Source of the DNA: Nereocystis luetkeana | Taxonomy: Eukaryota > Sar > Phaeophyceae > Laminariales > Laminariaceae | Direction of reading: 5' to 3' | Assembly (NCBI GenBank): GCA_031213475.1 | Contig: JARUPZ010000010.1 | Location: 4,814,776-4,878,775 of the forward strand | Length of the DNA stretch: 64,000 nt | Shown: positions 12,228 to 64,000 of the stretch, one piece after another | Position numbering within the stretch: position 1 is the stretch's first letter | Layout: each line of letters starts with the position of its first letter | Translations under genes and position numbers: made by a program | The notes under the pieces: generated by a model | Told to the model about the DNA's origin: nothing | Database searches by the model: none | Seen by the model: the letters and a program-made list of their open reading frames with translations, nothing else

Positions 12228-15200
12228 GTAAGTAGCGGAGAAGAGGAGTCGCCGCTCACCTTCACTTCCCGAACTCCCTTCCTGAAAACGCCTCCCTTCT
12301 CGACCCAGAGATAGCGCCGTCAACACAACATCGTTGTTCGAGTACTACATGGGTGGCTCCGCGCCTGATGGCAGCCAAAGCTGTCAGGTGAGCGTGGCGG
12401 AGTGGGGATATCCAATCCATACAAACACCTTGAGCTTCAAAGCACAAAATACGTGGGCAGAGTTATTAACGATTCCTGAGCGATGAACGATTGCGCCCCG
12501 CCCGAGACAAGATCAACTGTCTACCGCTGCTTTGGTTAGTGGCCACCGCATGATGAGATGCGACGGTCGACTGTACGGTAAGATGGCCCGACGCCACCCT
12601 GCTAAGTAAGTTCTGAAGTTCTCTGGAGTTATTGCCTTGGTTGGCGATGCATCGCCTGGTGTATCGCTGCGCACGATAGTGAACGACCCCCGCTAAAGTC
12701 CACAGCTACAGGCAGTAACGACTGAAGGTAGCTCCCAATGAGGAGCTATGCTGGCCTTCAGTGCCCGGTGATGGTTCGTGATGCCGAGCCTTCAATCGCT
12801 TCGCAACACAAGGTTCTATCACTGCACTGCTTTCAAACCGACCTATGATGCCTGGTACCAGGTATCATTTGTGAGTAGCTTATACTCAATGGTCGGACGG
12901 AAACGGGGTGTGCTTGCTTTCCCCCTCGTCCTTTTGCACCGAGAAAAAGCGTCCCATCTTCCTGTATTTTCAGCGATGTCTGTTGCCTGAGCGGCGTCTG
13001 TATACCGCATGTTCCCATGGTAACGAAGGCCGCGGAATGCACGACTTCCGACGTGCCAAGTGGGCGCCTTCCGCGCATCAGCAGGCGCCACCGAACAGTA
13101 ACATCTGGTAGGCAATCGTGGCAAAACAATAATCGAATCGAGAATTGCTTCAGACCGCCCTTACAATCGTGCCTGTTTCCCCCATCTGGTGTATACTCCA
13201 CGACCTCGTCCTCAGGCCGATGCTGGAGCCGTGACAATATGGGTCCCTCCTGTCAAGTGGTCTACTTTGGACGAAGCTGTTCCTCCCGCTGAGCCTGGAG
13301 CCGTGGTTGTTTGGACTTCCTCGGAGAAGGCTTACGGAAGGAATGTAGCACCTAAACGGTGCTGCTACAGGCTTCCCCGCGTGCTTGACCGCAACTATGC
13401 AGGAGAAAGGTGAGAAGTGTTGCGAAAGCCCGTTCGCGTACTGTAGGCGGTCGACCAGTCCTTCGTTGGACAAACCCTACCGGGTGTGAGCTTGTTGAAA
13501 GTACAGACGGTGTTGTGTAAACGCCTGCGAGACCCCGCACACGCGCTTGTTCGTGGTTAAGGTTGGAAGGTGCTGCGAGACTTGTGCCAGAGAGACCCCC
13601 ACAAAGCCTATTCGTTAGTTGTCAGGGACACCCTCGGCACGTTTTGTCAGAGAGCTGATAGCCCGCCTATATCACCCCCGACGCGTAGCGAGGGATATTA
13701 GTAGGTAAAAAACGAATACTACTGGTAGCCTTGTTAGCAGAGACGACGACCGCGTTGATTTTACCTACCAGGTACTCTATGTTACAGCCTCATTGCTGGC
13801 ACTACCGATGCGATGCAACGAGGCCACCGATCCTCGTAGTCTTCTCCGGATGGTGCCATTTCTTAATGGGCTGCCGATGAAGCCGCCGTGCTCACAGACA
13901 CATAACAACGTCACACCCGCCCACCCACCCACCCACCCACTCCCGCAGCGGCGTTTTCCCTCAGGAAAATAGCACCAGCTGAATCCCTGTACGTGCTTCA
14001 AATATTTAGCATTTCCTCGGGCAGATAGTCCAGTACGCACGCAAACGCTTTGTTAGCGTCTAGTCTTGAAACGTGTTTCCCACTGCAGTACTGTTGGAGC
14101 AACGGTATCAAAGGGTCACGGGTGCCATGGTGTGAACGTACTGCCGTAAGCACCTGACACTATCTGATATTCGTATTTTTGCAGGGTAAGTGTACCGATT
14201 GAGTTCCGCAGAATGTATACTTGATTCTGGTGTTTCAGCGTCGCATGAGAGTCAGAGGAACTGTAGGCAGCAGCAAGCCTCTCCCACCATGAAGAAAGAT
14301 ACTATGGGAATGTTACAGAAACATCTGATACGTGAGCCGTCACGCATTGATGTGTTTCCCAATGTAATCTTACCGCAGGCTCATGCATGGCGCGATTTTG
14401 GCGTCGCGCCATGCTCGCCGGACTGCCAGGGCGCTCTATCTCCCCTACATGCAAAAGACCACCGAAGCTTCCGCCGAAGAATCAATGCCAACCACCGTTG
14501 ACACGTCGGTGAGGAATTCTTGTTAACCCTGGTATTTATGCGTTGTATGGCTCTCGAAAAATTAGGCGATAACATAATCCCGATACAACACCACCACATT
14601 ATCCACGCACATATTGTTGATAGAGAGTACACACCGTCCGACTTTCTCTACCCGTATCGAAACAGGTGATGCCTAGTTGAGTTCAAGGGCACACTGATCT
14701 TGATGTTTTCCCCTCCTATGTTTTACTCCTCTCGGCTTATCTCAGCTCCGGCTCGAACAGCTTCTTACATTACACTCTGCACGGCTGGCGTAAACATAGC
14801 GTAACCGTGAGTGTGACGTTGGTGTAGTCCCACAATCCCTACCGTACCGAGTGTGGCTTGCCGCGAGTGACCTTGTAGCGACCATGGCCGGACGGAATCC
14901 AAGCTGGAGCCTGGGTGCCCAGGAGGTACCCAACCGAACATTGCCGGTGCGCTACACTGCAGTGCGTCGGCACGTCATTGTTGTGTCGACTTGGACTCAA
15001 TGGCTTGTCCTCGCGTCCTGCATCGCCTTCCCCGCTCGCGCCGTCCGGAAGCTCATCGTTGCTTGACATGGTTAATGAGCCTTCAAACTGTTATGTATTC
15101 ACGTAGGGTGGCTGTTTGCTTTTGTCGACGATTCTCTCTCTGTATCCCTCTCTGTATCTCTCTCTGACTCTCCTTCTCTCGCTTTCGTCCATCCCCATAT

Positions 15201-18200: not shown

Positions 18201-21200
18201 TATACTGCACTAACTCCAGTTCAACTGCTCCCGATTGATGTTTCCCTGTAAATCTCCGCTTTTCTGTGTTTTTGTTACTACTGGTGTTTGTACCAGGTAC
18301 CGTCAGCACAACATTCAGTCGCAAATCCTGTACGAACGAGCAGCGAAACCGCGCACTCAAGGGACGCCCCCTGCTATTTCTACGTAGATACGAGTGGTAC
18401 CACTACCACGTATTGGTAGTTTCTTCTTCTCTTCTTCTTATTGTTTCCCCGGTTCCATTTATTATCTTCGCCCCCCTGTCCTCTCTCCAAGTAGTAGCTC
18501 AGATCCGGGGTCACATATAGGAGGCTCTTGATAAATCCACCCCCCCCACAACGGTTTGTGACTTGAATTTTCATCGCGAGAAGGCTATTTCTTCCCTCAT
18601 CGACTCGCGTCTAATTTTGTGCCTACCCACGTTACAAAGGCGCTCTAAGCAACTGGTTCCTTTTTATTATTGCAAGTAAATCCAAAACTTCACTCACGGT
18701 GGGATTCGAGCTCGGGTACCAATTGCAGTAGAACCGGCGTATCGTGGTAAGGGAATCGACTGCAGGAACTGGCACGGAAGGCAGCTTCTCTTGTTCGGGA
18801 GACTTCTTTTTTGTTGTCGTCGTCTTATTCCCGTCTATGATGAGAGAATAGGGGGCAGTTTGAGAGTAAGTCGATAAGGGCTTGGTCAAGGCATCAAGCC
18901 CACTCTGCTCTCTTCCATTGACCCGCTAGAAGGGTACACGCGCTTGCCCGAGGAATTGTCCTCGGACGCTGGTCTACTCTTCTCGTAACGACTCCTAACC
19001 ACAGAAGTAGCCAAACCCTAGGATACTTCTGTCGTCTACTAACCCAATTCTACGGGTTATCCTGTCGTTAAGGGAGGCCTGTTCTAGAAATATTCCTTGT
19101 GTCCCGCACGAAAGCACGAAAGCCATACTACTGGCTGTCATATCTACCGACAGAAACTTCGGAGCCCCAAGAATACCCTTATGGTATTTAGGGCTTTGGT
19201 TCTTGTTTACCAAAAGGAACTTCCGAGCCCCAGGAATACTCCTAGGATATTCAAGGCTCTGACACTGCGGGCTAACTCATAACCACTTCTATAGCCCGAT
19301 GCTATAGCATATCAAGCAATGCTATTATATTATTATTTGTAGCTAACCACTAGACTACCGGGTCGAGCTTCAGTAGTTTTAACAAGAGCGGCGGCGGGCG
19401 ACCGACGGCGCTACTGACCGAGCGACGGCAAGCGACGACGGCGGGCCACGGCCGCCAAACTATAATTACGGAGCGACGAGATCGAGCCACGGCGCGATCG
19501 ACAAAGCGGTCGAGCGAGCGATGGGGCGGGCAGCGCCAACAAACTACGGAGCGACGAGGTCGAGCGACGGTGCGATCGACCGAGTGACCGAGGGAGCGAC
19601 TCGTGTTTCGTACGCGTGACCCAATTCGTTAGGAATATACTACTTTGATGCCACTGGAGCTTCGCCCCTTCGGCTTCAAACTCCTCATTAATAGTATTAA
19701 TTTCTTCAGAAGGATGTGGGCCAACGAATCGTTCACGTGTTAATAGTACTGAACATAAGCATTAGTAGTATGTAGAGGTACTCTACTGCACAAACCTGGG
19801 GAAATGGCATGTTCTCCCTCTCTCGCCCTGTAGGAGGGTACACCCCCGGACACGCCTTGGTTGTGTGCGGGACAACAACCCCCATGATCGCAGCCAGGAT
19901 CGCCATGGGCCATGCAGCGGTACTCCTCGCTGGCGCTGGCACACTGGCACCGATCGAATGCACTGACTGGTGCGTTTAGGCATCACATTATGCTGGATGA
20001 AATGAGATGCGCAGCTCTACGCAGCAGCAACATGAATAGCAGGTGCACCGACCACACGCACTGCAACGGCGGAGGACGCGCCCTTCCCAGCAGAAGGTAG
20101 ATATATATGTCAAGTGTATTGTGGAATCACGCTTCCTTGCCTGAAGACTTCTGGGCCACTATAATAGTGTAGGCCACGCTGCTTGGTACGAAGCATCACC
20201 AAGAAGGGCTCTCTCAGGAAAAATCTAAACAGTGGGAATGACTCTGCTTGATAATATTAGTAGTCATTCCCATTGATGTTGATTCCCATTGACTTTTCCC
20301 TACGGTCCGGTGGTGGAAATCGATTTTATAAGCTGTGAACTCGGGTAGCGTTTGTTACGTAGCATTCTTAGTCCACGTGCATTTCCCTACAATGGCGTCA
20401 CAGGCAGGGCGAGTTCCGTGGTTCGATTCTCGCCTTCATGTCCCGAAAAAAGGGGGATGCATATATCATGTTCTTGTAAAACTCACCCACTTCGGAAACA
20501 CCCTGGAGGGAACGATGAGAGCAATGCGTTGCGGTCATTGCATACTGAGTCCGGTACCGAAACGTAGGAGGTAAAACATAGAGCCAGAGTCTCACCGGGG
20601 TCCCTGACTTACTCGCAAGAAGATATAAGTCCGGTTTAGTGGGGGATAATGTGGTAGAAATCGAGTTTTTAAGCTTCAAACTCGGGTAGCGTTTATTACA
20701 TAACAGTTTTAGCCTACAACAATGGGAATGACTATTAATATTAATACTAGTAATTCCCATTGTGTCCCTCCGTACAGTTCCGGTACTGGTTTCATGTTCA
20801 TTGGTCAGGCGATAGGCCAACCCGGGGATGCAAAAAATCATGTTTCTTGTGACTTTTCGAACTATTCACCTGTGTTGCACTGCCCACCAAACACAAAAAA
20901 GCCCCGACAACAAAGACGCTGGAAGCACGTCTGCCGCCGTTTTTTTCACGAGGACTTTTCGTTTGTCTCCTCTAGCTCCGAACGTTTCCATCGAGCCAAA
21001 AATTGGCCAGCAGCAGATATGAGCTCCTTGGTGCACTCCTGTGAATGAGTGTGCCAAAGCAACAGCACTCTTCGTGACCTCCTTCGGGGCGGACCTCGTC
21101 ATTGCTGTGTGAAAATAAATGTGGTTCCAGGCGCTTGAATTTCCAGTTTCTTGTACTGTAGCCGAGTAATATTTTTCTTTTTTAAAACGATAAGAAGGAG

Positions 21201-26039: not shown

Positions 26040-29000
26040 ATGGAAAACAAACCAGTGCGGTGGGGTTTCCGGACAAGATTACGAAAAGTGATTTCTTTCA
26101 TATTTGCATTTTACTTGGTTTTCGTATACCCCTCATTTTACAGTGCTGATAAGAACGGCATTTCTACAGTAAGTAGCGGAGAAGAGGAGTCGCCGCTCAC
26201 CTTCACTTCCCGAACTCCCTTCCTGAAAACGCCTCCCTTCTCGACCCAGAGATAGCGCCGTCAACACAACATCGTTGTTCGAGTACTACATGGGTGGCTC
26301 CGCGCCTGATGGCAGCCAAACCTGTCAGGTGAGCGTGGCGGAGTGGGGATATCCAATCCATACAAACACCTTGAGCTTCAAAACACAAAATACGTGGGCA
26401 GAGTTATTAACGTTTCCTGAGCGATGCACGATTGCGCCCCGCCCGAGACAAGATCAACTGCCTACCGCTGCTTTGGTTAGTGGCCACCGCATGATGAGAT
26501 GCGACGGTCGACTGTACGGTAAGGTGGCCCGACGCCACCCTGCTAAGTAAGTTCTGAAGTTCTCTGGAGTTATTGCCTTGGTTGGTGATGCATCGCCTGG
26601 TGTATCGCTGCGCACGATAGTGGACGACCCCCGCTAAAGTCCACAGCTACAGGCAGTAACGACTGAAGGTAGCTCCCAATGAGGAGCTATGCTGGCCTTC
26701 AGTGCCCGGTGATGGTTCGTGATGCCGAGCCTTCAATCGCTTCGCAACACAAGGTTCTATCACTGCACTGCTTTCCAACCGTCCTATGATATATCAGATG
26801 CCTAGTACCAGGTATCATTTGTGAGTAGCTTATACTCAAACGTCGGACGGAAACGGGGTGTGCTTGCTTTCCCCCTCGTCCTTTTGCACCGAGAAAAAGC
26901 GTCCCATCTTCCTGTATTTTCAGCGATGTCTGTTGCCTGAGCGGCGTCTGTATACCGCATGTTCCCATGGTAACGAAGGCCGCGGAATGCACGACTTCCG
27001 ACGTGCCAAGTGGGCGCCTTCCGCGCATCAGCAGCCGCCACCGAACAGTAACATCTGGTAGGCAATCGTGGCAAAACAATCATCGAATCGAGAATTGCTT
27101 CAGACCGCCCTTACAATCGTGCCTGTTTCCCCCCTCTGGTGTATATTCCACGACCTCGTCCTCAGGCCGATGCTGGAGCCGTGACAATATGGGTCCCTCC
27201 TGTCAAGTGGTCTACTCTGGACGAAGCTGTTCCTCCCGCTGAGCCTGGAGCCGTGGTTGTTTGGGCTTCCTCGGAGAAGGCTTACGGAAGGAATGTAGCA
27301 CCTAAACGGTGCTGCTACAGGCTTCCCCGCGTGCTTGACCGCAACTATGCAGGAGAAAGGTGAGAAGTGTTGCGAGAGCCTGTTCGCGTACTGTAGGCGG
27401 TCGACCAGTCCTTCGTTGGACAAACCCTACCGGGTGTGAGCTTGTTGAAAGTACAGACGGTGTTGTGGAAACGCCTGCAAGACCCCGCACACGCGCTTGT
27501 TCGTGGTTAAGGTTGGAAGATGCTGCGAGACTTGTGCCAGAGATACCCCGACAAAGCCTATTCGTTAGTTGTCAGGGACACCCTCGGCACGTTTTTTCAG
27601 AGAGCTGATAGCCCGCCTATATCACCCCCGACGCGTAGCGAGGGATATTAGTAGGAAAAAAACGAATACTACTGGTAGCCTTGTTAGCAGAGACGACGAA
27701 CGCGTTGATTTTACCTACCAGGTACTGTATGTTACAGTCTCATTGCTGGCACTACCGATGCGATGCAACGAGGCCACCGGTCCTCGTAGTCTTCTCCGGA
27801 TGGTGCCATTTCTTAATGGGCTGCCGACGAAGCCGCCGTGCTCACAGACACATAACAACGTCACACCCGTCCACCCACCCACCCACCCACCCACTCCCGC
27901 AGCGGCGTTTTTCCTCAGGAAAATAGCACCAGCTGAATCCCTGTACGTGCTTCAAATATTTAGCATTTCCTCGGGCAGATAGTCCAGTACGCACGCAAAC
28001 GCTTTGTTAGCGTCTAGTCTTGAAACGTGTTTCCCACTGCAGTACTGTTGGAGCAACGGTATCAAAGGGTCACGGGTGCCATGGTGTGAACGTACTGCCG
28101 TAAGCACCTGACACTATCTGATATTCGTATTTTTGCAGGGTAAGTGTACCGATTGAGTTCCGCAGAATGTATACTTGATTCTGGTGTTTCAGCGTCGCAT
28201 GAGAGTCAGAGGAACTGTAGGCAGCAGCAAGCCTCTCCCACCATGAAGAAAGATACTATGGGAATGTTACAGAAACATCTGATACGTGAGCCGTCACGCA
28301 TTGATGTGTTTCCCAATGTAATCTTACCGCAGGCTCATGCATGGCGCGATTTTGGCGTCGCGCCATGCTCGCCGGACTGCCAGGGCGCTCTATCTCCCCT
28401 ACATGCAAAAGACCACCGAAGCTTCCGCCGAAGAATCAATGCCAACCACCGTTGACACGTCGGTGAGGAATTCTTGTTAACCCTGGTATTTATGCGTTGT
28501 ATGGCTCTCGAAAAATTAGGCGATAACATAATCCCGATACAACACCACCACATTATCCACGCACATATTGTTGATAGAGAGTACACACCGTCCGACTTTC
28601 TCTACCCGTATCGAAACAGGTGATGCCTAGTTGAGTTCAAGGGCACACTGATCTTGATGTTTTCCCCTCCTATGTTTTACTCCTCTCGGCTTATCTCAGC
28701 TCCGGCTCGAACAGCTTCTTACATTACACTCTGCACGGCTGGCGTAAACATAGCGTAACCGTGAGTGTGACGTTGGTGTAGTCCCACAATCCCTACCGTA
28801 CCGAGTGTGGCTTGCCGCGAGTGACCTTGTAGCGACCATGGCCGGACGGAATCCAAGCTGGAGCCTGGGTGCCCAGGAGGTACCCAACCGAACATTGCCG
28901 GTGCGCTACACTGCAGTGCGTCGGCACGTCATTGTTGTGTCGACTTGGACTCAATGGCTTGTCCTCGCGTCCTGCATCGCCTTCCCCGCTCGCGCCGTCC

Positions 29001-38070: not shown

Positions 38071-38479
38071 TTTAATCTTGGGAGGTTGAACGAACAGCCC
38101 AACACCATGCTCCTACGTATGGTATATTGGTGCTTGAGTACAGCAGCAGACCTATACCTGGTATACTATTGCTGTACTTGCGCCAGTACGTGCGAGGTAC
38201 GTCGTACTGACAGGTACCTGGTATGGGGTAAAGTAGTACATTTGCACCATATCTCCGAATGTGTAATGAGCATTTTTGCACTAATATGAAACTAAAACGG
38301 TGCTTACAATTCCGGACAGAGTCAGCATTGAATATCAATATTGCAGCAGAGTCCGGGCTCGTGGCGCCCTGTCTTCCTTCAAAATACGAATTGATTCCCA
38401 ATTGACGGTCGCAGTGGAGCAAGCGTACTTTCGGCAAGTGACTCAAAGGAGCGCTTGCACAAGCGATGCGGTGGGAACC

Positions 38480-39007
38480 TACTCCAGAAGCAGCGCTGCA
38501 CGAAGCGCACCTCCACCTGGTGCGCGGAATACAGCAGCAGAGTATTCCCATACACATACATCTTGGAAAAGCAATGATACATCGTACCTGGTAGAGCTTT
38601 CGTAGAACGAGGAGAAGTGCTGCCTCTTCCAGACGTTTGTTGAGACAAAACCAACCGGAGTGTTTCGGTTTCTGCCACCCATGCCCAAGTCCTTGAGCTT
38701 TAAGAGAGCCCCCTTGTGGGTCAGGAGTAATTCGAGATCCCCGCCGTGCAGCATTGCTCGTGCAGGAGTAGAAGAGGAACACGACCAACATCTCTTGCGT
38801 GCAATGCAGGAAAGACTCCACCGCTACTAAACGGCCATCCGACTCTTTACGAACGCCGTCATTCATGAAACGACAATACGCGATCTTTGGCCCCAAAGCG
38901 GGTAAGCCAGTTGCTTGAGTACGGACTTGTTGATCGGACTTCAGAGCTACACCCTCTCGCCGCCTACTACCATCTGCAAGTTCCTCGGCCTCCTTCGCGT
39001 CGGGCAC
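38480..39007 (-). pseudogene. Possible degenerate coding sequence, minus strand, unknown family
   Basis: An open stretch of 311 codons (38072-39007) begins with plausible protein-like sequence (TGLPALGPKIAYCRFMNDGV, then VAVESFLHCTQEMLVVFLFY). About 38755 the more protein-like frame appears to switch by one base to a second ORF (LHGGDLELLLTHKGALLKLK, ending near 38590 with KRQHFSSFYESS). I read this as one frameshifted remnant, perhaps of a transposon ORF, but recognise no domain. The rest of the long ORF down to 38072 looks random. Confidence 0.3.
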
Positions 39008-41157: not shown

Positions 41158-41159
41158 AA

Positions 41160-45813: not shown

Positions 45814-46475
45814 GCCTACCCGGTAGAAAATCGTACCGCGTTCTTTGATGATCTTCAAGTTGCCCAATATTAGGCAGATGGACAACACATAACATGCGTA
45901 AATACAGCAATAATATACTCAAAATGTGCGTCTGACACGCTCTTTCTACCCTCTCAGAGTAGGTGGTCGCGAGGCTTCCTTTGGCGTAGAGAAACACCGT
46001 ATTCATAGTATACCTGGTACTCTGGTACAAAGGAAAAAAAAAGTACGAAGGCAAAATCTTGAAAATTAACACGAAAAAACATGGCATGTGGTTCGATGGT
46101 CGTGGACGAATGCTCAGCCCAGGGCAAGCATAGCCCGACCACCCAAGTTTCCACATCCTACACTCGACACAATCATGAGAAACACAGCAGTAGTTGGCTG
46201 TTTTGGCGCACGTTGGTACAGAGTCTCGCCGTCAGATGACCGGGGGGGAAAAATGGGTTTTAGTCAAAAGCAGGAGTATCTGGCCACTTTCCGGCCAAAA
46301 TCAGTTACATGCTAAAAAAAAGTACTAAACACACCCCAGGAGCCCTGCTTTTGGCAAGGCTGGCATCGTAACCGATTTTGGCTCGAAAAGACCAAAGTAA
46401 ACCTGACTCATTCTGTCTAGGTTTCAACTGATTTTAACCAACTTTGAACCAATCAGAGAGGCCATACGTAAGCCG

Positions 46476-46879: not shown

Positions 46880-47475
46880 TCTTTGTTGACGTATACACTC
46901 TCTACTCGTACGTCGTACGTGAAATTACGTATTTATACATGCATGCATGCGTACGCCGGTTTCACTTTTTTTTCTTTGGGGTGTGCGATGGGCTTCAGTT
47001 AGTTGCTGCGATGTGTACTCTGTTGATTTCTATGGTCACAGCAGTCTATACAGCAGCACCACATAGTCACACGGCATTTCGTTTGTACAACCCCGCGTCG
47101 AGGTGGTCTCAGGTTTGGTACGGCAATATAATTTCGGCTGCACGAGGACGGTCTAGAAGCTTTAAAGCTGTGAACGAGGGGGGGCGCCAGAGTAATTTTT
47201 CTTGACGCTCCCACCGTGGCGAAACAAACGAAGTCTGTCTCTCTGCAGGTCCAAGTGGAGCCCGTGGTACCTACACCCTAAAGAATACCTGGTACAAAAC
47301 AATTCAGATTTTGGAGGCCATGTGGCACGCTTGATGCTATTTAGGCGCATTCTTTTTTTACCGGATTTTCATGGACATGACACCGCTCGTGGCCCGCGGT
47401 TTTTACTTGGTTTTATTTAGTATGTACCTGATTTTGGCTCAAACGGATCAGGTATACCTGATTTTGGCATTTGCC
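46880..47475 (+). repeat. Dispersed repeat R2, copy 1
   Basis: Two blocks match 59150-59640. One (46920-47040) contains TGTGTACTCTGTTGATTTCT; the other (47270-47475) contains AAAACAATTC, GACACCGCT and CAGGTATACCTGATTTTGGC. About 230 bases between the blocks (47040-47265) are missing from the other copy. The repeat is non-coding as far as I can see. Confidence 0.55.
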
Positions 47476-47479: not shown

Positions 47480-49700
47480 AAATAATTGCCTACGGCGAAA
47501 ACGAACCCAAACAAAATCGAAAATAAGTACGGCACCAAAACACGACCCCAGCACACGCTCGGGGGAATTCTCGCGTAAAACGTGTGTCAGCGCATCGCCG
47601 TACGGCTCAAGTATAACCACCCTTTCGATACTGCTGCATGGCTGCCGCCGTCCTTCGTGTGTAGGCTCTTCACCCCCAATTGCATCGCTCTTTCTACCCG
47701 TCGACATCCAGCATACCCACTGCCCCGTGTCACGTCTTCATCCTACGGAGTAAGACACAGGCTACGTATGTATGTGGTCACAAATGATGCATTCTACGGA
47801 AGAGGTAGCACATTTCCGCTGAAATGTCTTCTGAATGACGGGGTCCCTTAACCCAGAATCGTCGGAGTGTCAATTTTGTTTCGGAAAAATACTTTTTTGT
47901 ATACTTGGGCCATGGGATTATCCATCGAGAGGCAATTTGGTTTTTGCTGAAGTCAGATTTTGGATGAAGTATGGAGTTCCTTACGTGAGGGGCCTCAGAA
48001 AAGCTAGAGTTAACCTCTATCGTAGAACGCCTCAAATACCCATACGGACCTTGGCCCAGCGACAACCTGGCTAATTTCAGATCCTAACCTCGGCCGTCCG
48101 GGATTTTTTTCCGACAACCGTATACCTGGTAGCACGGACGCAAGATAGTAGCCCAACCGACCAAGCAGATTATCCTGACAACGGGGAGAGTGCACTCGCC
48201 GAAGAGAATCGGTTGTGTATGGAAAAGGTCTCCACGAAATCTTGCCAAGGCCACCACTTTTAGATATTGTTGTGTGTGCCCCGCTCGGGTTAGACGACAT
48301 CGGCTCGGAAATTCGTTGTAGGAGGTGTGGGGTGTGTCATCTTGTCTTCCGTGTTTAACAGATAAATAAAGGCGTAACGAGGGGCTGGCGCCGACCGTGA
48401 ATCATTTACTAAAATCCTGGTCAAGTTGTCCAAGCTTTTGGCTTCAATGAATAGAGCACTACACTGGTGGCTGCCTTCCATCATCCCACGACAATACCGC
48501 AGGCGACGCGAGACCATCGTTAACAATAGTATAATAATCGCGTACGTATATTAATACGTATCTTGATATGGTACGAGTACATACTGAAATACTAGTGACC
48601 CAGACTAGGTTTATTGTACAGCTGCAGTTATCAAATAACCTACAGCAGTATTGTAATAATGCTCACGTTTGGGGAGACGCTCTGAAAATTGGATTAAAAA
48701 AACGTGTCCAGAGGCAAGCGCTGCACTAAATCATATACAAATGGCCATGCTCAAGGTTAAGGAGGATGTCGCCACAATAGTATTGTACGGCTTGCCATGC
48801 TCAGATTAAGTGTTTCTTGTCGGCCAGCCCATACTGACTGTATAGGGAAGGGTGCGCTCTACACTAACTTCAGTATAACCAATCGCTTATTATGGAATTA
48901 TTATTCGAACATTTCTGCAAATGTCAGCCTGACTTTCTTATGAGATCGATTTCTTATGGTAGGTGTTCGTAACTACTCGCTCTTGCCTGGTACAAACTTG
49001 TTGAAGGTCGCACGTACCAGGTACAACAGCAGTATCAATTCCTTAACCGCACTATCTACGGAATACGGCAGTCACCCGTGCCTCCTTCCCTCTCTCTGGG
49101 TGGTGCCGGTTTCGGGCAACAGTAATATTGATATCGATTAATTCTGTTAGAAGAGGTGAAACCAGGGGCATTCGACGAGGAGAGAAAAAAAACAACAGCC
49201 TCTTCACCCCCCCCTGCATAATACAATAATACATACTATACACTCCTCGCCAGTCATGAACCATGAAACATACACACATCAGTGGTGGCGTTGGCTGATT
49301 GTGTCACTACTTAAAAATGCGCAGTATGCGAGGTGATGCGATACAGCCCATTGGTAGGGAGAGCCTCCCCCGGCTTTTGTCGAAAATGCCAATTTTGGGG
49401 TAAAAATGCCCGGGTTCTTTTCCTTGAGCCTATGTTTGGGGGAGGGGGACGCGTTTTAGTCCCGGGGGCCGAATTCTGGAAAAACCCCAGTTAATCCTTC
49501 GTCCCCTGTACAAAAACACGTACCAGTATTATTTTTTATTGCTTACGGAACTTATTTTGAAAAAAAAAAAATGGGTGGTACGTTTGGGACTTCTGGCGCC
49601 TGCTGGCCGACGTGGGCAGCGCTTTGCTGATAGTGCACGCCGATCGAGCCTGCTTCCGACACAACAAAAGTTCATTTCCGTGTGAACGAGCCGATTTTCA
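47480..49700. other. Interval without a recognised gene
   Basis: Minus-strand ORFs at 47778-48300 have somewhat protein-like stretches but no supporting motif or splice signal. 49395-49580 contains G-rich and A-rich low-complexity runs. Nothing further was identified. Confidence 0.3.
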
Positions 49701-49945: not shown

Positions 49946-50257
49946 AATACGAATGATGGATGGTATAGTCGCACCGCAAATCCCGAAAAAATGTTTTTTC
50001 GGAACCGAAAAAGCCGGGAAATGTGTTTTGGTATTTGCCGCGTTGTTTTTTTCTCCGACTCAAAGTAATTTTCTTTGAGCCGAATCGAGCCGAAAACCAT
50101 ATTTTCAGATATTTCAGCGCAGATCGAAAAACCTGATTGCATTTTGTTAGAGCACGACTACGCGAAACACAAACAAGCCGGCGGAGGCTCAGCCTACCAA
50201 TTAATTGGTGTATATAGTATCTAGGATGTATCCACCAACGTCATGACGGTGCAAATA

Positions 50258-50362
50258 TTACGGGGGACCATAGTTAATAGGACCAAATATTGTTACTAAA
50301 AATGGTTAAATATATAGGTTTTTATGTATACCATAGGTCCTATTAACTATGGTCCCCCGTAA
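50258..50362. mobile_element. 105-bp TA-flanked MITE, copy 2
   Basis: Same length and structure as 757-861, with TA at 50256-50257 and 50363-50364. It carries the TTAATAGGACC variant in both arms, so both arms of this copy share the same substitution. Confidence 0.85.
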
Positions 50363-50364
50363 TA

Positions 50365-52117
50365 GTAATCACACTGCCTCCGTCCTTTTCAGTGATCGCA
50401 CACGCCTTGTACGGTAACACGAGAAAAGACTACGCTGCAGCAGGCCTGTACTTGCGGGATCGAAGGCTATCGTGGAAGCTGCCGCGAAACCCGAGACGGG
50501 GCAGTAGTCCAAGAGACACGTGCGTTTTTCACCTGCACCCGCGATAGTCTCCAAAATATTACCGGTGCTGTAAAGAGGTTTGAGGAAAGTCTCCAACGGT
50601 ATGTTCTGTAGGATATAGTATCGTATTTTTCCCGAGGATATGTTCTGAGGTATATAACCGGTACCTGGGGCATTCTTGGTGGTCGTGCCCAAATTACCGA
50701 AGTGTCGGGTACCGGCATTGAGGTCGTACCGACCTTACCGAAGTGGAGGGTACCAGTACCGAGTCTGTACCGAACATTAACGGAATGTTCGGTAGAGTAT
50801 TGCGGTTGTACCAAACACTCCGGTAAAATAGGTAGGACATTGCGGCCGCATGGAGCACTCCGATAAGGCTCGGTAGGGTAGTTACCGAGCAAAATCTCCC
50901 GGTCGGTATACTTTGACACGTATCCTACGGAACATACCCTAGAAGGTTCGATCTCACCTCTGGCGTCATTTTGGTCAAAATGTCATGATCTTTTGTAAAA
51001 ATAGTCCATTCGAGACAACGCATTCCTTTTGCTTCGGTCTCACGACGTTTAAAGCACAACGAAATGAAAAAAAAAAACAGAACAGCCGTGATCGCCAGGA
51101 CCAAGGGAATCAGATCGGACACCGTTTTTATTTCACTTTTTATTTATTTCCTCTAATTGAGGTTACTTTCGGATGTTTTTAAAACATTTACGTGGTCAAC
51201 GTACGCATGCAAAACAATGTTCCATTTTGGTCAGAACCGTGAACATAAGCACAGTGAAATCTCGTTGTCCTTGAAAAACGTTTTTCATACCAGGATGGAT
51301 AAACGGGGGGATCGTTTTCCGTCCATTTGTTCTACATAAAAGTTAGGAGTATCCGTATTAAGGCGATACTAAATGTGGTCCCGGATACGTTTCTTTGCCG
51401 TCATTTTTTAGGGCAGAAATTTTAAAATGCTGAAACAGTTCCAGGGCAGCGCTATTTTTTTTTACTTAACCAAACCTGTTGCAAATTATGACTTCTGAAA
51501 ATTCACTCCCCAGAAATATCGATGTCAGAGAACACGGGTTTTCGGTTTTCGGCGATAAAGAGGAAAATTACGCTCGGATCTAAAAGCGCAAACTGGTACG
51601 TATGCAGACCTGCCGAAAGGGGGTTTTCATGAGGTGGCCATTCGCGCACTTTGGTCGGCTAAGGAGTATATCGTAAACTACGAACCTACAGTAATTCAAG
51701 CCAAAGCATCCAGTAGGCGCAAACGACGTTCCAAGCCGCAGCATCCCGAGCGGGCCGAATCAATTGTCAAACTGTAGAGTGTTCGTAGAGTATTTCCAAG
51801 CTCAACCTCCTACAGTATTATTTTGTAGCCCTGATTACCGGCTTAGGGTTCGGATTAGGGCTTGAATCAGGGTTCGGGTCGGAGGGTCGGCTTTTGGCGC
51901 CTAGGACAGAACCTTCTCGAAAATTATATATCGAGAGGTCTGACCACACCTCCAGTGTCTCGAAAATTTCCAACCACGAGATGAGCGATTGGGCGTTGAT
52001 TTTCTCTTTTTGATATTTATTAACACCCCCACTCACCAACAGATAGGTGTGTACCAGTACGGTATGACATGTGATATACGTGTAGGTGCCGGGACCAAAA
52101 TGAAGAAACCCGTCTGC
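50365..52117. other. Interval without a recognised gene
   Basis: 50640-50900 shows a loose series of TACCGAA/GTACCG-rich motifs (for example at 50697, 50734, 50760 and 50810) that look like decayed short repeats. No supported coding region. Confidence 0.3.
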
Positions 52118-52400: not shown

Positions 52401-52566
52401 TCGAGGGTAAAACCTCTTACGATTTACCTGGTAGGCTGGAAAGTGATGATAAAAAAAAACAAAAACACGTTTTTCGTTTGACGTTTTATCTCCTTCAAAT
52501 TAGTGTATTCGTCCTTCTTTTCACTCTCCTTCCTACCAGGTACTATTAATGCTGTAGTGAAGTGTA

Positions 52567-52823: not shown

Positions 52824-53889
52824 GTAGTGACTCCGGATCTGAGTTACGGCTAGGAAGGAACAGGACAGCGACGGATTCTGATACCGAACCGAACCGAAAA
52901 TTCCGAGAATCCGGTATCGGTATGCGATACCGAAACTGGTATGGTCCAGGCAGAACAATTTCTCCACGGGGGGTACCGGTTTTTTCTTCGTCATTTTTGA
53001 GAATTGACACGTGAAACAAAGTGTTCCAGAATCGCGCGGCCGAGAGGAATCCAAAACCGGTCTTAGGAAACAGTTCCAAAAACAATGGCCATTTTTCGAT
53101 TTTTGGGGGAAAATTTACCCCAAAATTACCCCCGAAATGTTGAAAAACATTTTTGTTGTCCCGAATCGAAATAAAAATAACAGACGACGGCCAACCCATA
53201 CCTGATTTGTCGAGAAGATACATACCTGGTATATGTATACAGGAGTAGGTACAGTAATCTATTATATGTGTATCCACAATGATACATCTGTCCATACGCG
53301 ATAGTATACATGTCATACACACAATGCAGATTCATGAAGCGGCTTTCCTCGGCCCACATTTTTTTTTCGAAAAAATAATAACAAACATCCAGTGTCCAGG
53401 TCCAATATATCCGAATCCGAGGAGTTTTTTTCACATCCACCGCCGTGCAGGGTTTGCTCTATGATCTCTTCAGCTGGCGACGGGAAAAGTGGCTTTTGCG
53501 CCTTTATCTCGCTTCACAGTCCATGAAAATAATTTCTGCTTTCCAGGAATTTATTTTCATGGACGCGATGCTTTCAAAACTGGTCAACTGTGTCGACCTC
53601 CTAAATCTTGACCCTTTTTTTGTCGGAAAACGAATCACTCCGACGCAACGACGAAAACAAAAAAAAAACTGCAGGAATTATTCGATCCGTCTGAAACAGG
53701 GCTTTCTGGCAATATCTTTCATGTCTTCTGAAAATAAGAGGCCACCCCGAAACAATTCAATATGTGAATGTCGAACTTCTGGAAAAGTTTTCTTCCTGGA
53801 CTATATATATTATATATATATGTATGTACGAACTGGTATAAACCCAGTCACTATGGTACAAGTCCTTGCTCGGTAATCCTTCTAACATT

Positions 53890-54429: not shown

Positions 54430-57360
54430 GAGCGCATATATATCCCGATAGGAAATAGTACCGTGTTCTTGGACATTCTTTATACGAAACGTTCTCCATT
54501 TTTTTTTTTCCGAGTGCCGGGAGTTGTTAGCAAAAAAGTTCAGGGTGTGCCACGTTTTAATTGTGTACCATTATATCTATTTCCGAAAAGGTGCCTGGAT
54601 ACAACAAGGCCGAAATCCATATCACAAATAAATACAATCAAAAGAGGTGACCGCAATGAACAAAGCAATTTAGCATACTTGAAACGTAAAAAAAAACTGA
54701 AGGTCAATTCCCCATCACAGCTCAAATTATTGTTTGCGGCCCCCTACAACGCCGGTCTCTCGTAGCCCAAACATCCCAACCCGGTTCAATAACGCACCAC
54801 TCCTTGATGTATTAAAGTCGCGTTTCCACCGAATTTCTATCATTCATGTTGAACCGGGTTGCTACGCGCCGCCATACGGGGACTGGTATGCATTATTCAT
54901 AACATACTTTTGTCACGTAAGGTAGAGCTATGTAGCGCGCGTATTATTACTAATAACTATTAATAGCTGTAGACGAAACAAAATTGCCGTCCGTAGTAAT
55001 AGCTGAGCAGAAGTAGTTCGATCATTTCCTGAACGTGCGGTGTTTGTCTCTTGTTTTTAGACTGCAACGATCGCTAAATCGATGCCGGTCACGTCGCTGT
55101 AGTTCAACCATAAATAGGTAAAACCCTGTACAAGCACGTACCCAACAAGTAAGGCATGTATATGCGCACCCAACAAATAAGGTGAAACTCGTGCGTATCG
55201 ACAACCGGATGATCCCTCGCCGTATCTCGACTATTTATTGATAGAAGAAAGAAAGGGCGGCCACCAAAACACGGGATTGCCCGTTCCTTTCGGAACCAAG
55301 CCCAACTACAGTCTAAAATTGAATCAAAAACACGCGTTTGCCGTACGTACTTCTTCCAAACACCCTGCTCTCGCTTGGCACCCTGATCCCACTCGGACCT
55401 GAGCCCTCGAAGCTGAACCTGGGTACCAAGTACATAATTAACCGCCGGCAGGGCACGCCCAGCACCCTGATTCCACGCCTTAATTGTTTTTCGCTTGAGG
55501 CGTGTGTAACAATGCGCATAAATATGTATGTATCGCTAAGAAGGCCTAACCCAAGGACGAAATGACAGCAGAGAAAATCGAGAGGACAATGAATGAGTGA
55601 ATACTGAAAAGTGGTACTTAAAGAGCGGGGAATTATTGCAGCAGAACGAGAGGAATGACTGCAGCAGTGAAATCAAAGAAAGGTACATCACATATGAGTG
55701 GCTCAAGCAATAGGTATCGGAGTCCACATCGGTTGAAACCCCGACGCTTTTATGTGTTCATGGCCAATCGCGTGGCTCGTGGGGTGTGTTTTTGACTTGG
55801 TTCTAAAGTAGGTCGTACCCGTTTTAAGACTCCGAACATACCGGGTATACTCGTATCCATTTTGGGTCGTTGCTCAAAAAGTAAAGCCCCCACTGCTCAC
55901 TCCCCACTCCTCGCTCCGCACGCTAAACATGTATAATACTCGTATATACGTCATGGGTAGCTGTGGCAAGCAGAGACAGAGTTCATACCCCCCATGTATA
56001 TTGAGCGGTGAGCGTTTGTTTTCTGAAGCCGCACTGTACACACCCGCTTTGACGTAAGATGCTACCCTTCCCTTAGATATCACCCTCGGTGGTAAAAACA
56101 CTAAACAGGGACAAAGGACCAGGTTTTATCCCCGGGGCACGTTTAGATACCACCCCCGTGGACCGCTCCGCCTCCCAATCAGTAGAAAAAAGTATCACCC
56201 GGGGCCGGTACCGGTACAGTTGTTACATGTCATTTCTTACGTCGCATGATACAACATCAGTTATCACCATGACCGACTACAAGTAGGTCGGAACATTCAT
56301 CGTGCGTAGGACTGAACATATACCTGGTACCTGGTATCGACGACGAGGGAGGAGGGAGACTGAGCGTCGACGTGCGGAGAAGAGACGGATTGACCTCCCC
56401 CTGCGCGAGAATTTTTATTTCCCAGATCAGAACCGCAAGTGCGAGGAGCATTTTGTTTTTCAGGATGACGGAGAAAGGGAAACGACTGGAAGGGAATGGC
56501 AACGAGTGCACGCGCAAAGGAGCGGGTGGATTGGGCCAAGGCGATGATGCGGCCATGAAGAGCGGCAGGAAGACGGTGCATGGAGACCCATGATTTGCGC
56601 GCACACTATCATCACGAGAGAAGCAGTCATAGTTTGTTTTTCCTGGTTTTGTTTTTCACGAGGCAGAATAGTATCTACCGGTACTCGTCACTGGTTTTTG
56701 TAGTTTAACGAGTTGTATACCCTTCATGGGGAATAACCTACGCAATTATCAGGGACGTGGTATCATAACTACAGTTGTGCTGCACCTTTTTGTGTCAGAC
56801 AGTCCAGGAAGAGATGGCGATCGTTGATATTCGTGTGGCAGTAAGGTTCGATTGCTCCTTTTTTCACTGCATATATATCCGCGAGTCTTCACTCTGACAG
56901 CACTCCAGATAGCAGGCAGGTGTGTTCCTCTTTCGTTTTCACGACTACCGTGCGTTTCGTACGGTGCAGGCAGCACTTCAGACAGCATCCGCTGTAGTCA
57001 GCAGCCACGAGTTGGTTAGTGGTGGGAACGGGGGTACTCTTCTATATTATAGTTGAGAGGATATACCCGCGGCCATGTTAGTTCAGTTTTGCACATTGGT
57101 TTTATCTGTGTGCGCTTTTTCCGTCTCGTGTATTTTGAGGCAGCCGAATTTTCGTTTTTTTTTGTTTTTCGGATCTTCCTAGGGCTCCAGCACCTTTGTG
57201 TGACCACGGACTCCTTCGTCAGAGAGTTAATGTGAGAACAACAACAACAACAACAACCACGTACTGTACAGCAAATGTAGAACTGGCGGGGAGAGTGCCT
57301 CTGAAGAACCACTTCCTTCTTGTAGCAAGCAAGCTGCCTGGAAATCTTCTAATATGCTAC
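54430..57360. other. Interval without a recognised gene
   Basis: No convincing exon or family motif. It contains a double TACCTGGTACCTGGTA motif at about 56320. The ORFs are short and lack splice support. Confidence 0.3.
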
Positions 57361-59649: not shown

Positions 59650-61140
59650 CTGCCGGTCCCATACTGGTCTACCAGGTACTGCGATATCTCTACATCAGCT
59701 ATACAGTTCTGCTCTCTCATCTACAGCAAGCTGGCGAGCAAGGCTGGGCTTTTTTGTACTGATGTGGAGGCCCGAACCGGCACTATCAGAGCCCCGTAGC
59801 GAGGGTAACCGGCATTCATGAGATCCAGTTCCCAATAACGTCGTTGGGTACCGGCGTGAGTGAGGTCCCAGTCGTGCGAAGCAAAGTCACCCGCAATAAT
59901 ATCTGATATTGGGAGCAGTGGCATTATTCAACCGGCACTACTGGGAGCCCCCCGCTAGTTACTTGTAGCGACGTAAATAAACTCTCGACACGAGGGGGGC
60001 TACATGTGGCTGGGTCTGTCGATCTACAGCAGTAGTCTATGCTACAAGAACGACTTGTGCAACACGGCCTGACAACTAGCCTAGAGTGGGCTAGTCTACT
60101 TTTAGTCCAAGGCTTGGTTTTGCAGCCTACAGGAAGGAGCAAATAACCATCGATCGATCAAGGCTCAAGCCGTTGGTTTCTTCTCCCAGCCTCAAGCCTC
60201 GGATTCTAGCCACGAGTGGCCGGCGCGATCAGGAATAGGTGGAGACACTTCCGAGCAGGGACTACATGTTGATATGTGTTTCGTACGAGAATACCAACTG
60301 TTGTACAAGTGCTCGGGTCAGAGGTATCTTCCCGATACTGGTTTACGAGCGCGAGCAGAGCGAGCAGACTGCTGTTATCGGTACGACTGCGTACCTCTGG
60401 TACCTGATTTGAACTTTATCGACGAGGCCGATAGCACCAGTTGAGCATCCAACATCTCCAGCGCACCATCAACCGCATCCCTCGCAACACAGTGCGGGTT
60501 CAGACCCGCGTATCTCTTCTGCTTCTGCTGATGTGGCTACCCGGCTGGGTATCAGCAGTGACTTCACCGACCGCGCAACGCGCGCGGTGGTCAGATGTGG
60601 GTCGGCGTGGTCAGATTCGAACACAATACAAGTTCTTCCTCCCCGTTGTTAAAGGCCTGCCATATCTATAAAAAAGCTGTCGGTAAACGGTAACCGCAAA
60701 ACGCAAAACGGACAACGGGCGTATCATGTATGATATCCTTTGTTCAGATCTTCTGCTGCTTGCAGTTGGCCAGTACTACAGTACTCGTACCGTTGCAGTG
60801 ATGCAGGTCCTGCCAAGAGGCACCTGTATGGTGTAGACACTGCAGTTGAGGGTAGAGGTAGATACGATAGAGTAGTAATCTCATTATTGTTATAACGGGT
60901 AATTGTGATGCTCGAGACGGAATCATGGCGGACACGAAAAGTACTGCTGTACTGCTGTTCGTAGTGTCGGTACAGACTACTGACAGTATATCGGACGCTG
61001 TGTGCTGCTGTTGTTGGTGCTCAGGCGCACCCTTGGTACTGTCAGACAGGTGCCGGTACTGGCCCATACCCAGACATTTGTGCACATAGCAGGTATCGTA
61101 CTCTGAGGTAATAATTAATGCCCTTGAGGTACTGGTGCTA
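59650..61140. other. Interval without a recognised gene
   Basis: Short ORFs only. Contains TACCAGGTA at 59671 and TACTGCTGTA at 60942. Confidence 0.3.
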
Positions 61141-61661
61141 TTATGGGGGACCATAGTTAATACCCTGGTAGGACCTATGACTGGTCGTCCCCGGTGGTTC
61201 AAGTGGGTAACCTCGAATTCTACTTGTGTTTGAGTCCTGGGTTCGAGCCCCAGGTGGGTCGGAGTTTTGGCTTTATTTGCAAAAATAAAAATAAAAATGA
61301 TTCAATTGTTGAGAGCGCCTTGCAGCGTGGGTAGGCACAATTCGATGCGAGTCGACGGGGGAAGAAAATGCTGAAATCTTCTCGCGATAAAAATGAAGGC
61401 ACGTACCGTAGCGGGAAGGGGGTAGAAGAGCCTGCTATGTGACCCCGGATCTGAGTTTCGAGTTGGAAGGAGAGAGAGAAGACAATGTGCGAAGTGCGAA
61501 GATGATAAATGGGATGAGCAAAAAAAAAAAAAATGGTACCTGGTATACCATAAAAACCTACGGGTATACCATAAAAACCTACCAGGTACCAGGTACTGGT
61601 ATATATTTATCGATTTTTACAGACAATATTTGGTCATATTAACTATGGTTCCCCGTAATAA
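61141..61661 (-). mobile_element. 105-bp-family MITE split by a SINE insertion
   Basis: 61141-61183 is one end of the MITE (TTATGGGGGACCATAGTTAA). 61534-61661 is the remainder in the same overall orientation, ending ACTATGGTTCCCCGTAATA. The SINE at 61184-61533 sits between. The MITE parts also carry extra TACCWGGTA-type insertions and a partial tandem copy of GGGTATACCATAAAAACCTA. Confidence 0.7.
61184..61533 (+). mobile_element. tRNA-derived SINE inserted in a MITE
   Basis: Nearly identical to 46476-46827 over the head, body and A-rich tail, with the B box GGTTCGAGCCCC. Its insertion into the MITE dates it as younger than that MITE copy. Confidence 0.8.
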
Positions 61662-61780: not shown

Positions 61781-64000
61781 TATATCAGGAGACCGGGGAG
61801 GGTGGTTGGGGACCCGCCCCCTCTCGGCACACCCATCCACGACCGTTTAGCGAATAAACGCAACCGCCCTGCCTCAGTGGTACTGTAAGAACAACATTGT
61901 AACGCAAATACTCCAAAAGTAGTGCCCTACGCGCCCCCTCTCTCCGGCTCAATCGTGACATGATGGCGGTCAGATTCCGTGCAGATATCGCGAAGTACGT
62001 AGGATGCTCGTACGTATTCGCATTCGATGCAAATCAATTGGCGAGCGCTCCTCGGTTCCAGTGCGTCACACGCAACACAACAAAGGGGCCCGGAATGGTC
62101 AGGGGGCAGAGGGAACGTACTTTATGACCCGGGGTCCGAAGAATCGAGTGCCGACCGCAACAAAGTGGTCGAAGGGACAACAACAAAAAACACCCCCTGG
62201 TCGTTTCCACGCCATCTATAAACCACATCCATCCGTGTTGTTGTGCTGTTTCTACGGTACGTGGTGTCACGGTTTACCGAAGCCCTGCTAACTGTTACCG
62301 GCCCTGCTCGTGGCGGGGATTGATCTAAAACCAGCGACAGGGATGGACAGGGGAGGTCCCCGAATCATGCGACGTACTACTGCCGCCCCCAGCTCTCCCC
62401 CGTATAGCCCGTTCGTTTGCGAAATGTATAGTAGTAAAGGGGGAAGAAAAAGTGCACTTCGCAGGGCTCTCCACCGTACCAGGTACCAGGTACCGGGTGT
62501 CAACACATTTATTTCTTGAACATCGACCGAGCTCTACACGTACCGAGGAGCGCTTGCGGTACGAGTAGTGCATGGATACTATGTTACATTTTGAGCTTTC
62601 GTTGAGGACCATGTGATTTTTGACGACCGCACTTTTTGTATTTGACATCGACGATATTCTTTGAGAGGTCTTTGAGTACGTAGTATATCCAATACTGAGT
62701 GGCGGCAGCAGGTAACAAACTGGAGAGTATCTCAGCATCTGGTGGTACATATTTCGTGGTAGTTGGTAAGGCTTGCTTGCTATGTATGACTGCTTGTTGT
62801 GACGGTCAATCCATACTTACTTGGGACTTACTTGTGGTCGCTTGCAGAAGGGAGGGTTGGCGCTTTTCGCAGTTGTTAGTTGTTGTACAATCTGCAAGAC
62901 CCCTCCGCGCAAACGCGTTGGGTAACGGCCGATCTGTGCCCTTGGCATCACGAATATATGTGCTCTCGAAGTCACAAGGGGCGCAGTGTATGTGGCGGCT
63001 TGTCACGTGTGACAACCGATCAATTCCTCTTGGCTAGAAGCTTGTGGCCACGTGCCCAAATGTATTCGAAAACACGCCACGACAAGCGGGGGTCGACACA
63101 CCTATTTCCTGTATGCACTCGCTTTTTCTGCTGCCACCCCCCAATACCGTTATTTGCGGTCTCTCTGCTGTCCCCCTCTCGCTTTATCTCCGGACCCGAA
63201 GCGTCTTCCACCACCGTCCTAAGGCTTTCGCTTCAAAACAAACTTACGCTACAAAACCTGTTGCCTGTCCTTCAAACACTCGTGCGGTAGGGGTGGCGTA
63301 GCGAGAAACATATCAAGAAATATCATGCCGCCGATAGCGTCGAGTCTATTTTTTTTGCAGTTGGAGGAGAAGGAAAAGGGGGAGGTAGAGGAAAAAGAGG
63401 AGTAGGACGAGTGGGATGAGTAGCAACATCAACTGTAGAATAGTAAAACCGGTAGTAGAATTAACCAAGTACGTGGTATGCTGCGACAGATATAGCGGCT
63501 ACAGCACATACTATCCCTCGAAGAGCTGTCACAAACGCGGCAATGAGGAGGGGATACGTTGTCACCGACGTAGTTGACACCATAGTCGAACAACAGCAAT
63601 ACATGAGCTCGATGCCTTAACATAACGCTCTAAATATATGCGGACTTGCTCCTGATTCGAGCATCGTAAACTCCGGCAGAATCCCTGCCTTCTAGCTCTG
63701 AATGAGGCATGCACAAGTGTCTGGATGCCTCCAGCAAGTAGTCGTTGTCTTCTCGACCACCGTGTCAAACCTTGCACAACAAACGCCCTCGAGGTCGCTG
63801 GGGCATCCAACATCCGGCTGGATGCTCCCACCGAGAGGCCACCCCCAGGTGCAGCTTCTCTCGGAGCCCATCTACCTCTCCAACAAAGCGGATGGGTAGC
63901 GCTGGAAATCAGCGATGGAAGCTCCTGCAGCCGCTGGAGTTTGTAGGCCGTGAGGGGTTCATAGTGCCACTATTTGGGCAGCCGTGTGGCTTACGGCCGT
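61781..64000. other. Right end of the window without a recognised gene
   Basis: Contains TACCAGGTACCAGGTA at about 62476 and a purine-rich run at 63360-63415. ORFs up to 141 codons show no recognisable domain or splice-supported exon. A gene continuing beyond the window cannot be excluded. Confidence 0.3.

Follow-up and report, generated by a model that had tools for sequence, protein, structure and literature searches.

The window analysed here is a stretch of 64,000 nucleotides from the genome of Nereocystis luetkeana (contig JARUPZ010000010.1, positions 4,814,776 to 4,878,775), which carries a pair of long repeats, copies of a miniature inverted-repeat transposable element (MITE) and numerous copies of the 9-bp palindrome TACCWGGTA (W, A or T), discussed below as the probable scar of an excised transposon and called a scar for brevity. 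The window contains 31 exact copies, while dinucleotide shuffles (n=100) give a mean of 0.53 and a maximum of 3, in agreement with the first-pass annotation, which had estimated about 30 exact sites against roughly 0.5 expected and whose example coordinates are correct within 2 bases. Under an order-2 Markov model, the two forms were observed 16 and 15 times, against 0.37 and 0.42 expected. Of the 18 highest-ranking 9-bp odd palindromes of the window, the runner-up reaches a copy number of 4, and each one-mismatch word of TACCWGGTA is present in at most 4 copies. The two forms had been taken for two distinct footprints; this has to be corrected, since TACCAGGTA is the reverse complement of TACCTGGTA and both are one scar read on two strands, so that their near 1:1 ratio shows only random orientation. 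Three of the 31 sites (26806, 27716 and 32252) are second copies within an 11.3-kb duplication, leaving 28 independent placements. The tandems sharing a TA, which had also been described earlier, are real (56321/56328, 61580/61587 and 62477/62484). The sites and the repeats needed to read them are listed in window coordinates.

11648-22898 / 25593-36863, no strand: 11.3-kb repeat pair, 97.9% identical; basis of the empty-site comparison
12856..12864, + strand: TACCAGGTA, exact-word count; paralogue of 26806, both copies filled
13766..13774, + strand: TACCAGGTA, exact-word count; common to 27716
18291..18299, + strand: TACCAGGTA, exact-word count; common to 32252
20701..20702, no strand: empty site TA (ATTACA-TA-ACAG), paralogue of 34666; 122/122 identity to its joined empty form
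26806..26814, + strand: TACCAGGTA, copy of 12856
27716..27724, + strand: TACCAGGTA, copy of 13766
32252..32260, + strand: TACCAGGTA, copy of 18291
34666..34674, + strand: TACCTGGTA, insertion of exactly 7 bp when compared with 20701
37657..37665, + strand: TACCAGGTA, exact-word count
37709..37717, + strand: TACCTGGTA, exact-word count
38155..38163, + strand: TACCTGGTA, exact-word count
38215..38223, + strand: TACCTGGTA, exact-word count
38585..38593, + strand: TACCTGGTA, exact-word count
39296..39304, + strand: TACCAGGTA, exact-word count
39636..39644, + strand: TACCTGGTA, exact-word count
39654..39662, + strand: TACCTGGTA, exact-word count
39726..39734, + strand: TACCAGGTA, exact-word count
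46011..46019, + strand: TACCTGGTA, exact-word count
47286..47294, + strand: TACCTGGTA, exact-word count
48123..48131, + strand: TACCTGGTA, exact-word count
49015..49023, + strand: TACCAGGTA, exact-word count
52425..52433, + strand: TACCTGGTA, exact 7-bp insertion in a dispersed repeat; the L028, L016 and L025 copies read TTAGG
52534..52542, + strand: TACCAGGTA, exact-word count
53223..53231, + strand: TACCTGGTA, exact-word count
56321..56336, + strand: tandem TACCTGGTACCTGGTA, two overlapping sites with a common TA, exact-word count
59670..59678, + strand: TACCAGGTA, exact-word count
61161..61170, + strand: 8-bp variant TACCCTGGTA in a MITE-like copy; TA at this place in other MITE copies (by inspection)
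61537..61545, + strand: TACCTGGTA, exact-word count
61580..61595, + strand: tandem TACCAGGTACCAGGTA in a MITE-like copy, exact-word count
62477..62492, + strand: tandem TACCAGGTACCAGGTA, exact-word count

The abundance extends far beyond the window. In the whole genome (465,085,209 bases, 1,987 contigs), the genome-wide count that had been proposed earlier returned 182,395 TACCWGGTA, or one site per 2.55 kb, against 1,744 copies of the reversed control word. This is an excess of about 105-fold and not the near-expected frequency that had been named as a refutation. At fixed places on ten contigs, twenty stretches of 10 kb were sampled; they contain 1 to 9 sites each, with a mean of 3.9. Stretches of the host genome outside the window are given L numbers below; the motif sample amounts to 282 kb with 120 sites, from which overlapping pairs and three duplicate copies were dropped to leave 98 isolated sites. 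The tandem scar word was also found in five viral contig records, each holding only the two sites of the tandem itself, which was taken as chance.

Such a density could in principle mean that the motif merely belongs to a larger repeat family, with which it is copied. Sites are indeed copied within repeats, as at 12856/26806, 13766/27716 and 18291/32252 and in the five sites common to two copies of a DDE_Tnp_4 repeat. The 98 isolated sites, however, have no flanking sequence in common, and several repeats unrelated to one another hold empty sites; the hosts of the scars range from a 111-bp MITE and a short dispersed repeat to the 11.3-kb repeat and a DDE_Tnp_4 repeat exceeding 8 kb. Flank comparison and paralogue tests refute a larger repeat family as the origin, an explanation whose chance is now negligible, and the restriction to one such family that had been named as a refutation of the earlier proposal does not apply.

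How the sites arise can be read from pairs of repeats that differ by them. Site 34666 reads ATTACA-TACCTGGTA-ACAG, while the other copy of the 11.3-kb repeat, at 20701, reads ATTACA-TA-ACAG; the joined empty form of 34666 is identical to 20701 at 122 of 122 bases, which makes this the clearest case. Among the 17 indels of the pair it is the sole 7-bp change from TA to TACCTGGTA, and at three further sites both copies carry the scar. When indels of 4-16 bp between repeats in the sample were listed blind to the motif, the resulting 155 included the exact change from TA to TACCWGGTA at four loci (window 34666, window 52425, L022:2187 and L022:8898). More generally, a paralogue of empty type, crossing the junction with its TA kept, was found for 10 of the 136 sites with usable flanks (identity of the high-scoring segment pairs 77-100%), which is TA insertion with TA duplication as in transposons of the IS630-Tc1-mariner (ITm) group. 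A filled-type paralogue was found for 14 of the 136 and both types for none, and the remainder had no usable paralogue. Control TAN5TA words (n=1,174) yielded 7 empty-type and 326 filled-type paralogues, and three of these seven empty-type matches are shadows of the scar itself. The contrast of 10/14 with 7/326 gives p = 3.6e-9 by Fisher's test, with 10 of 24 informative sites empty against 7 of 333. Overlapping or near-identical stretches (L005, L006, L040-L042 and L044-L046) were left out of these tests, as were low-complexity control words (1,249 to 1,185).

The tested TACCWGGTA sites are 7-bp insertions into TA. Because paralogues are polymorphic for TA and TACCWGGTA at 10 of the 136 sites and scars lie in several unrelated repeats, the earlier description of a TA duplicated around a 5-base remnant stands; the lack of TA/TACCWGGTA polymorphism that had been named as a refutation, there for strains, is not seen between paralogues. 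An 8-bp variant, in which TA becomes TACCAGGGTA or its complement, occurs at L013:670 and, by inspection, at window 61161-61170; this class numbers 8 in the sample against 0.7 expected. Two irregular sites were observed as well. One copy of the scar at 12856/26806 (window 12850/26791) carries an additional 9-bp ATATCAGAT alongside, perhaps through imprecise repair, and a MITE copy at L018:7520 reads CCTACCAGGTATACAT where others read CCTATGGTATACAT, so that the scar there seems to stand in place of TATGGTA and not beside it.

A further explanation for a palindrome of very high copy number is that it is kept or spread by selection or methylation, as a eukaryotic analogue of HIP1 or as a protein-binding site. 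CCWGG is a methylation-type core in bacteria, and HIP1 is a short cyanobacterial palindrome present at enormous density, which arises and persists without insertion. The likeness to HIP1 lies in a short palindrome at very high density, and the difference lies in the exact 7-bp insertion seen here; to our knowledge, HIP1 has not been described as an insertion scar. Since the tested sites arise as 7-bp insertions and not by point change, this explanation is very improbable. It is also at odds with the number of one-mismatch words (114 against 56 expected, beside 105 exact copies in the window and sample with the second 11.3-kb repeat copy left out), an excess expected of decaying scars. From the same excess it follows that scars have been decaying for some time and have a spread of ages; a single burst was rejected as their origin for this reason, and prolonged activity appears to fit the ages better.

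The sequences around the scars carry a preference of their own. Outside the outer TAs of the 98 isolated sites, the same bias is found on both sides: outward positions 6-7 favour TA (p 9e-6 to 9e-11 for each side separately). A TA occupies position 6 in 50 of 196 flanks, where the background is 7.6%, and flanking TAs follow a 7-bp rhythm at positions 6 and 13. The base adjoining the outer TA is seldom A (14/196). The preference is thus symmetrical (palindromic) around TA, as in ITm transposons, strong at d=6-7 and weaker nearer the TA (n=98). Two-fold symmetry is expected of a transposase dimer acting on TA. The sites are also clustered: gaps of at most 50 bp number 16, where a TA-matched null gives 2.9, and six of the 16 are tandems. 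Tandems can be explained because a scar sets TAs 7 bp apart and the target preference is symmetrical. Slippage of a 7-bp unit was rejected as their sole cause, since mixed orientations occur: among the first 100 genome sites listed there are eight tandems, five in the same and three in mixed orientation (38770/38777, 195796/195803 and 239145/239152), and another mixed one lies at L025:9723.

These features bear on a templated or enzyme-specific micro-insertion, in which a repair polymerase would fill TA-overhang breaks with a constant CCWGG and no transposon would ever have occupied the site. The exactness and uniformity of the insertion would suit such a process, as would the absence of a recognisable element from the roughly 330 kb of host DNA examined. 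It does not account for the symmetrical flank preference and local clustering, which are the behaviour of a transposase dimer, nor for two other scar classes of the genome that match visible elements, and we know of no template for a constant 5-nt filler. Micro-insertion is therefore regarded as unlikely.

The first of these two other classes is TATTAATA, present 71 times in the 282-kb sample against 7.7 expected. The motif-blind indel list contains the change from TA to TATTAATA at L017:4568 and L023:7103. Its likely source is a MITE with copies in the window:

50256..50366 (others 755-865 and 52565-52675), no strand: 111-bp MITE TTACGGGGG...CCCCCGTAA; scars in other copies; likely TATTAATA source

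This MITE inserts with TA duplication, empty sites have been seen, and it is the only clear TA family among larger TA-flanked insertions between repeats. Further copies were found at L003:826-929, L009:6304 and L019:8193, and some copies carry TACCWGGTA scars. The MITE target, TAC-TA-GTA (26 ends), equals the flank preference of TATTAATA, which was taken from 54 sites after 17 microsatellite-like ones of the 71 had been dropped. The TATTAATA scar would be made by TT and AA, two bases from each MITE end. TATTAATA is likely a second TA scar class with the TTACGGGGG MITE as its source.

The other class is TACWGTA, with 113 copies in the sample against 46 expected; its empty-type paralogues (3 of 137 sites against 8 of 1,067 controls) are weak by themselves. 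Both ends are present in two pogo-like copies, L055:39-2222 and L028:6006-8055, which start with TA-CAGTACCGGCC and carry the complement before TA at the end. The L055 copy has a DDE_1 match with one internal stop, and the L028 copy shows no similarity to that middle stretch. CAG ends of this kind predict a TACWGTA scar, and the scar likely fits a pogo-like element with TA-CAG ends. The genome thus carries TA scars that match element types present in it. A search with a pogo-like protein of the genome returned 82 relatives with identity of up to 94%. The best of those with a species name are seven entries from Ectocarpus, which cover 54-80% of the query at 34-62% identity; by this result alone, the host would most likely be a brown alga other than Ectocarpus.

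Taken together, TACCWGGTA is probably what remains after excision of an ITm-like transposon that moves by cut-and-paste, duplicates TA and has inverted CCAGG ends. The exact 7-bp insertion at TA with TA on both sides, the symmetrical preference, the clustering and the genome-wide scale are direct observations, and the excision reading gains support by analogy from the two other TA scar classes, for each of which a matching element is visible. According to the proposed mechanism, an element with inverted CCAGG ends would insert at a TA whose surroundings are TA-rich and have two-fold symmetry (roughly WWnnnnR-TA-YnnnnWW) to give TA-CCAGG...CCTGG-TA. Subsequently, the transposase would excise it by a staggered cut, with 5 nt of each end kept as an overhang. 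The two CCAGG overhangs may then anneal as C:G, C:G, A:A, G:C and G:C, and host end joining would resolve the central A:A to yield TACCAGGTA, or TACCTGGTA on the other strand, while the element would land elsewhere, often nearby. Because the near-complementary CCAGG ends can pair, one copy would be kept, with A or T at its centre; the doubled form TACCAGGCCTGGTA is found 0 times in the sample beside 120 TACCWGGTA. TT overhangs cannot pair, and therefore both would be kept (TTAA), so the contrast in repair between CCAGG and TT ends fits pairing. As the element itself was not found, we infer the source, with its CCAGG ends, 5-nt stagger, overhang polarity and annealing, from the scar, the target preference and the two other scar classes.

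Several known systems offer points of comparison. The Sleeping Beauty remnant is C(A/T)G with a central mismatch, and the footprint appears differently in a review. In the excerpt of that review, it is printed as TAG(T/A)CTA (PMC2874221). Like Tc1/mariner elements (Sleeping Beauty, ZB, Tc1), the present system has a TA target, TA duplication and a short remnant between two TAs, and here it is known from the scar alone; the scar structure fits end-derived nucleotides between two TAs, the ends being those of a putative element. The excerpt of PMC7913693 gives excision footprints of 2-4 bp for Tc1/mariner and a palindromic AT-repeat target preference for ZB, whereas the remnant here is CCWGG, 5 nt long, and has left 182,395 scars. 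Pogo elements (Tigger, Passer, Fot1) also duplicate TA, and the genome contains DDE_1 matches and the TA-CAG copies described above; Passer leaves 0-4 bp according to the excerpt of PMC9976928, unlike the 5-nt remnant, and none of the 11 DDE_1 loci read, out of at least 28, has CCAGG ends. For Stowaway/mariner excision in plants (OsMar 14T32), the excerpt of PMC4561436 describes element-derived overhangs joined by non-homologous end joining, with a footprint that includes the target-site duplication, which resembles the process proposed here. The same excerpt attributes 3-bp duplications and mostly precise excision to Tourist/Harbinger; DDE_Tnp_4 repeats in the genome recall PIF/Harbinger and ISL2EU, but only TA is duplicated here and not a 3-bp TWA. 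PiggyBac differs in its TTAA target and seamless excision, since the target here is TA and the scar stays.

The earlier statement that no described system has this signature is therefore too strong, TA-flanked footprints being described for Tc1/mariner in the excerpts of PMC2874221, PMC7913693 and PMC4561436. In its workings the scar resembles the footprint of a Tc1/mariner or pogo element; what sets it apart as unusual is the greater length (5 nt), the much higher uniformity and the far larger number. Membership of a transposon family cannot be claimed on scar evidence. A text search of the literature (subscription journals and preprints lying outside it) returned no genome-wide scar of the TACCWGGTA kind among the titles and abstracts listed.

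A number of results weigh against the excision reading and are gathered here. The 5-nt remnant lies outside the 0-4 bp range of ITm scars given in the excerpts of PMC7913693 and PMC9976928. Rice excisions pooled over superfamilies are mostly messy in the excerpt of PMC4423477 (8 of 94 perfect, the others with deletions or filler), as opposed to the one uniform canonical product seen here. Shorter words, which might represent trimmed scars or have another origin, show no more than a 2-3 fold excess in the sample (TACCGGTA, 13 against 4.2 expected; TACCAGTA, 17 against 6.5). One of the 12 informative empty-type paralogues, L021:9581, has no TA at the junction, and a further one, window 26806, which the script had scored as empty, proved spurious because its partner is the filled copy; its removal brought the count from 11 to 10. 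Regarding the flanks, the bias is partly general TA-richness, TA being raised also at d=1, 3, 7 and 13 (46, 33, 32 and 35 of 196, background 7-8%), and of the two sides just one shows a significant R-TA-Y bias (p 7e-5 and 0.065). The support drawn from the other classes is qualified as well: empty-type paralogues of TATTAATA were found at 4 of 62 sites beside a noisy TAN4TA control (32 of 1,328), a count that is weak alone, and a transposase match is present in just one of the copies behind the pogo comparison. Finally, no pair of TACCWGG and CCWGGTA with inverted repeats was recognised in 56 host sequences (about 330 kb, partly repeated), a DDE_3 profile search of the genome gave 0 matches, and a search with the mariner profile Transposase_1 gave 0 matches with a control that was also silent.

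The TA-CCAGG...CCTGG-TA element with a transposase that the first-pass annotation had postulated was thus not found in the roughly 330 kb of host sequence examined. By the rule of three, this absence is compatible with about 4,200 copies in the whole genome, a figure that rises if elements exceed the stretch length; absence from the sample is therefore not absence from the genome. Inverted-repeat element pairs sought in the window, the 282-kb sample and 10 of the at least 28 DDE_1 loci gave best matches that look like chance or overlapping scars, and a listing of half sites without a following TA revealed no recurrent end sequence except repeat copies. CCAGG ends were absent from the 11 DDE_1 loci read, with TA-flanked ends checked for nine of the first ten; at two of the 11, such ends start with GCACCGGGG and CAGTACCGG. 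PF13843 gave four weak matches. DDE_Tnp_4 gave 57, of which eight loci were read, and repeats with near-identical copies are present; one DDE_Tnp_4 family was set aside as the source, since similarity between two of its copies starts at the left boundary with GTGTAAAGCCCG and not CCAGG. The repeat with this left boundary is the DDE_Tnp_4 repeat exceeding 8 kb; it extends from L027:7815 onward to L047/L039 and from L049:796 onward to L043, is 99.7% identical between contigs C10 and C19 with five scars in common, and has recently spread.

With elements unseen, an abortive or one-ended transposition also has to be considered, in which the inserted DNA would be just the last 5 nt of an element, or a deletion derivative of very small size, and most sites would never have held a full element. 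It would keep both the TA duplication and the target preference. Ordinary excision, however, explains the two other scar classes, and we know of no report of an ITm transposase inserting a bare 5-nt tip, which makes this alternative improbable.

Other features of the window include a Ty1/copia element at 6369-10739 with an open frame of 1456 aa, identified by a Pfam scan that matched this element only among 10 window open reading frames and found no match among 10 from the sample. A 97-bp near-palindromic repeat at 45717-45813 has TTAA at both ends, like a short MITE with a TTAA target, and a tandem array with a 74-bp unit at 40715-41158 overlaps an open reading frame of 218 aa.

Returning to excision of a TA transposon as the preferred reading, a fuller picture can be sketched tentatively, although it is less likely than not to hold in full. 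A low-copy, long-active and undescribed TA transposon with self-pairing 5-nt overhangs might convert nearly every excision into one benign 7-bp scar, each scar setting TAs 7 bp apart, at a distance preferred around its targets, and making the next visit likelier, so that more than 180,000 scars would stand as a record of past visits, far outnumbering the element. The history of transposons is usually read from surviving copies, and here the scars far outnumber visible ones. If true, the 5-nt stagger would extend the 0-4 bp range given for TA transposases in the excerpts cited, and the 7-bp insertions could be a large and overlooked source of small indels, shifting the frame wherever they fall within genes. 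If the density holds as excision scars, the jumps, target choice and repair of one transposon family would become measurable across the whole genome without the element itself.

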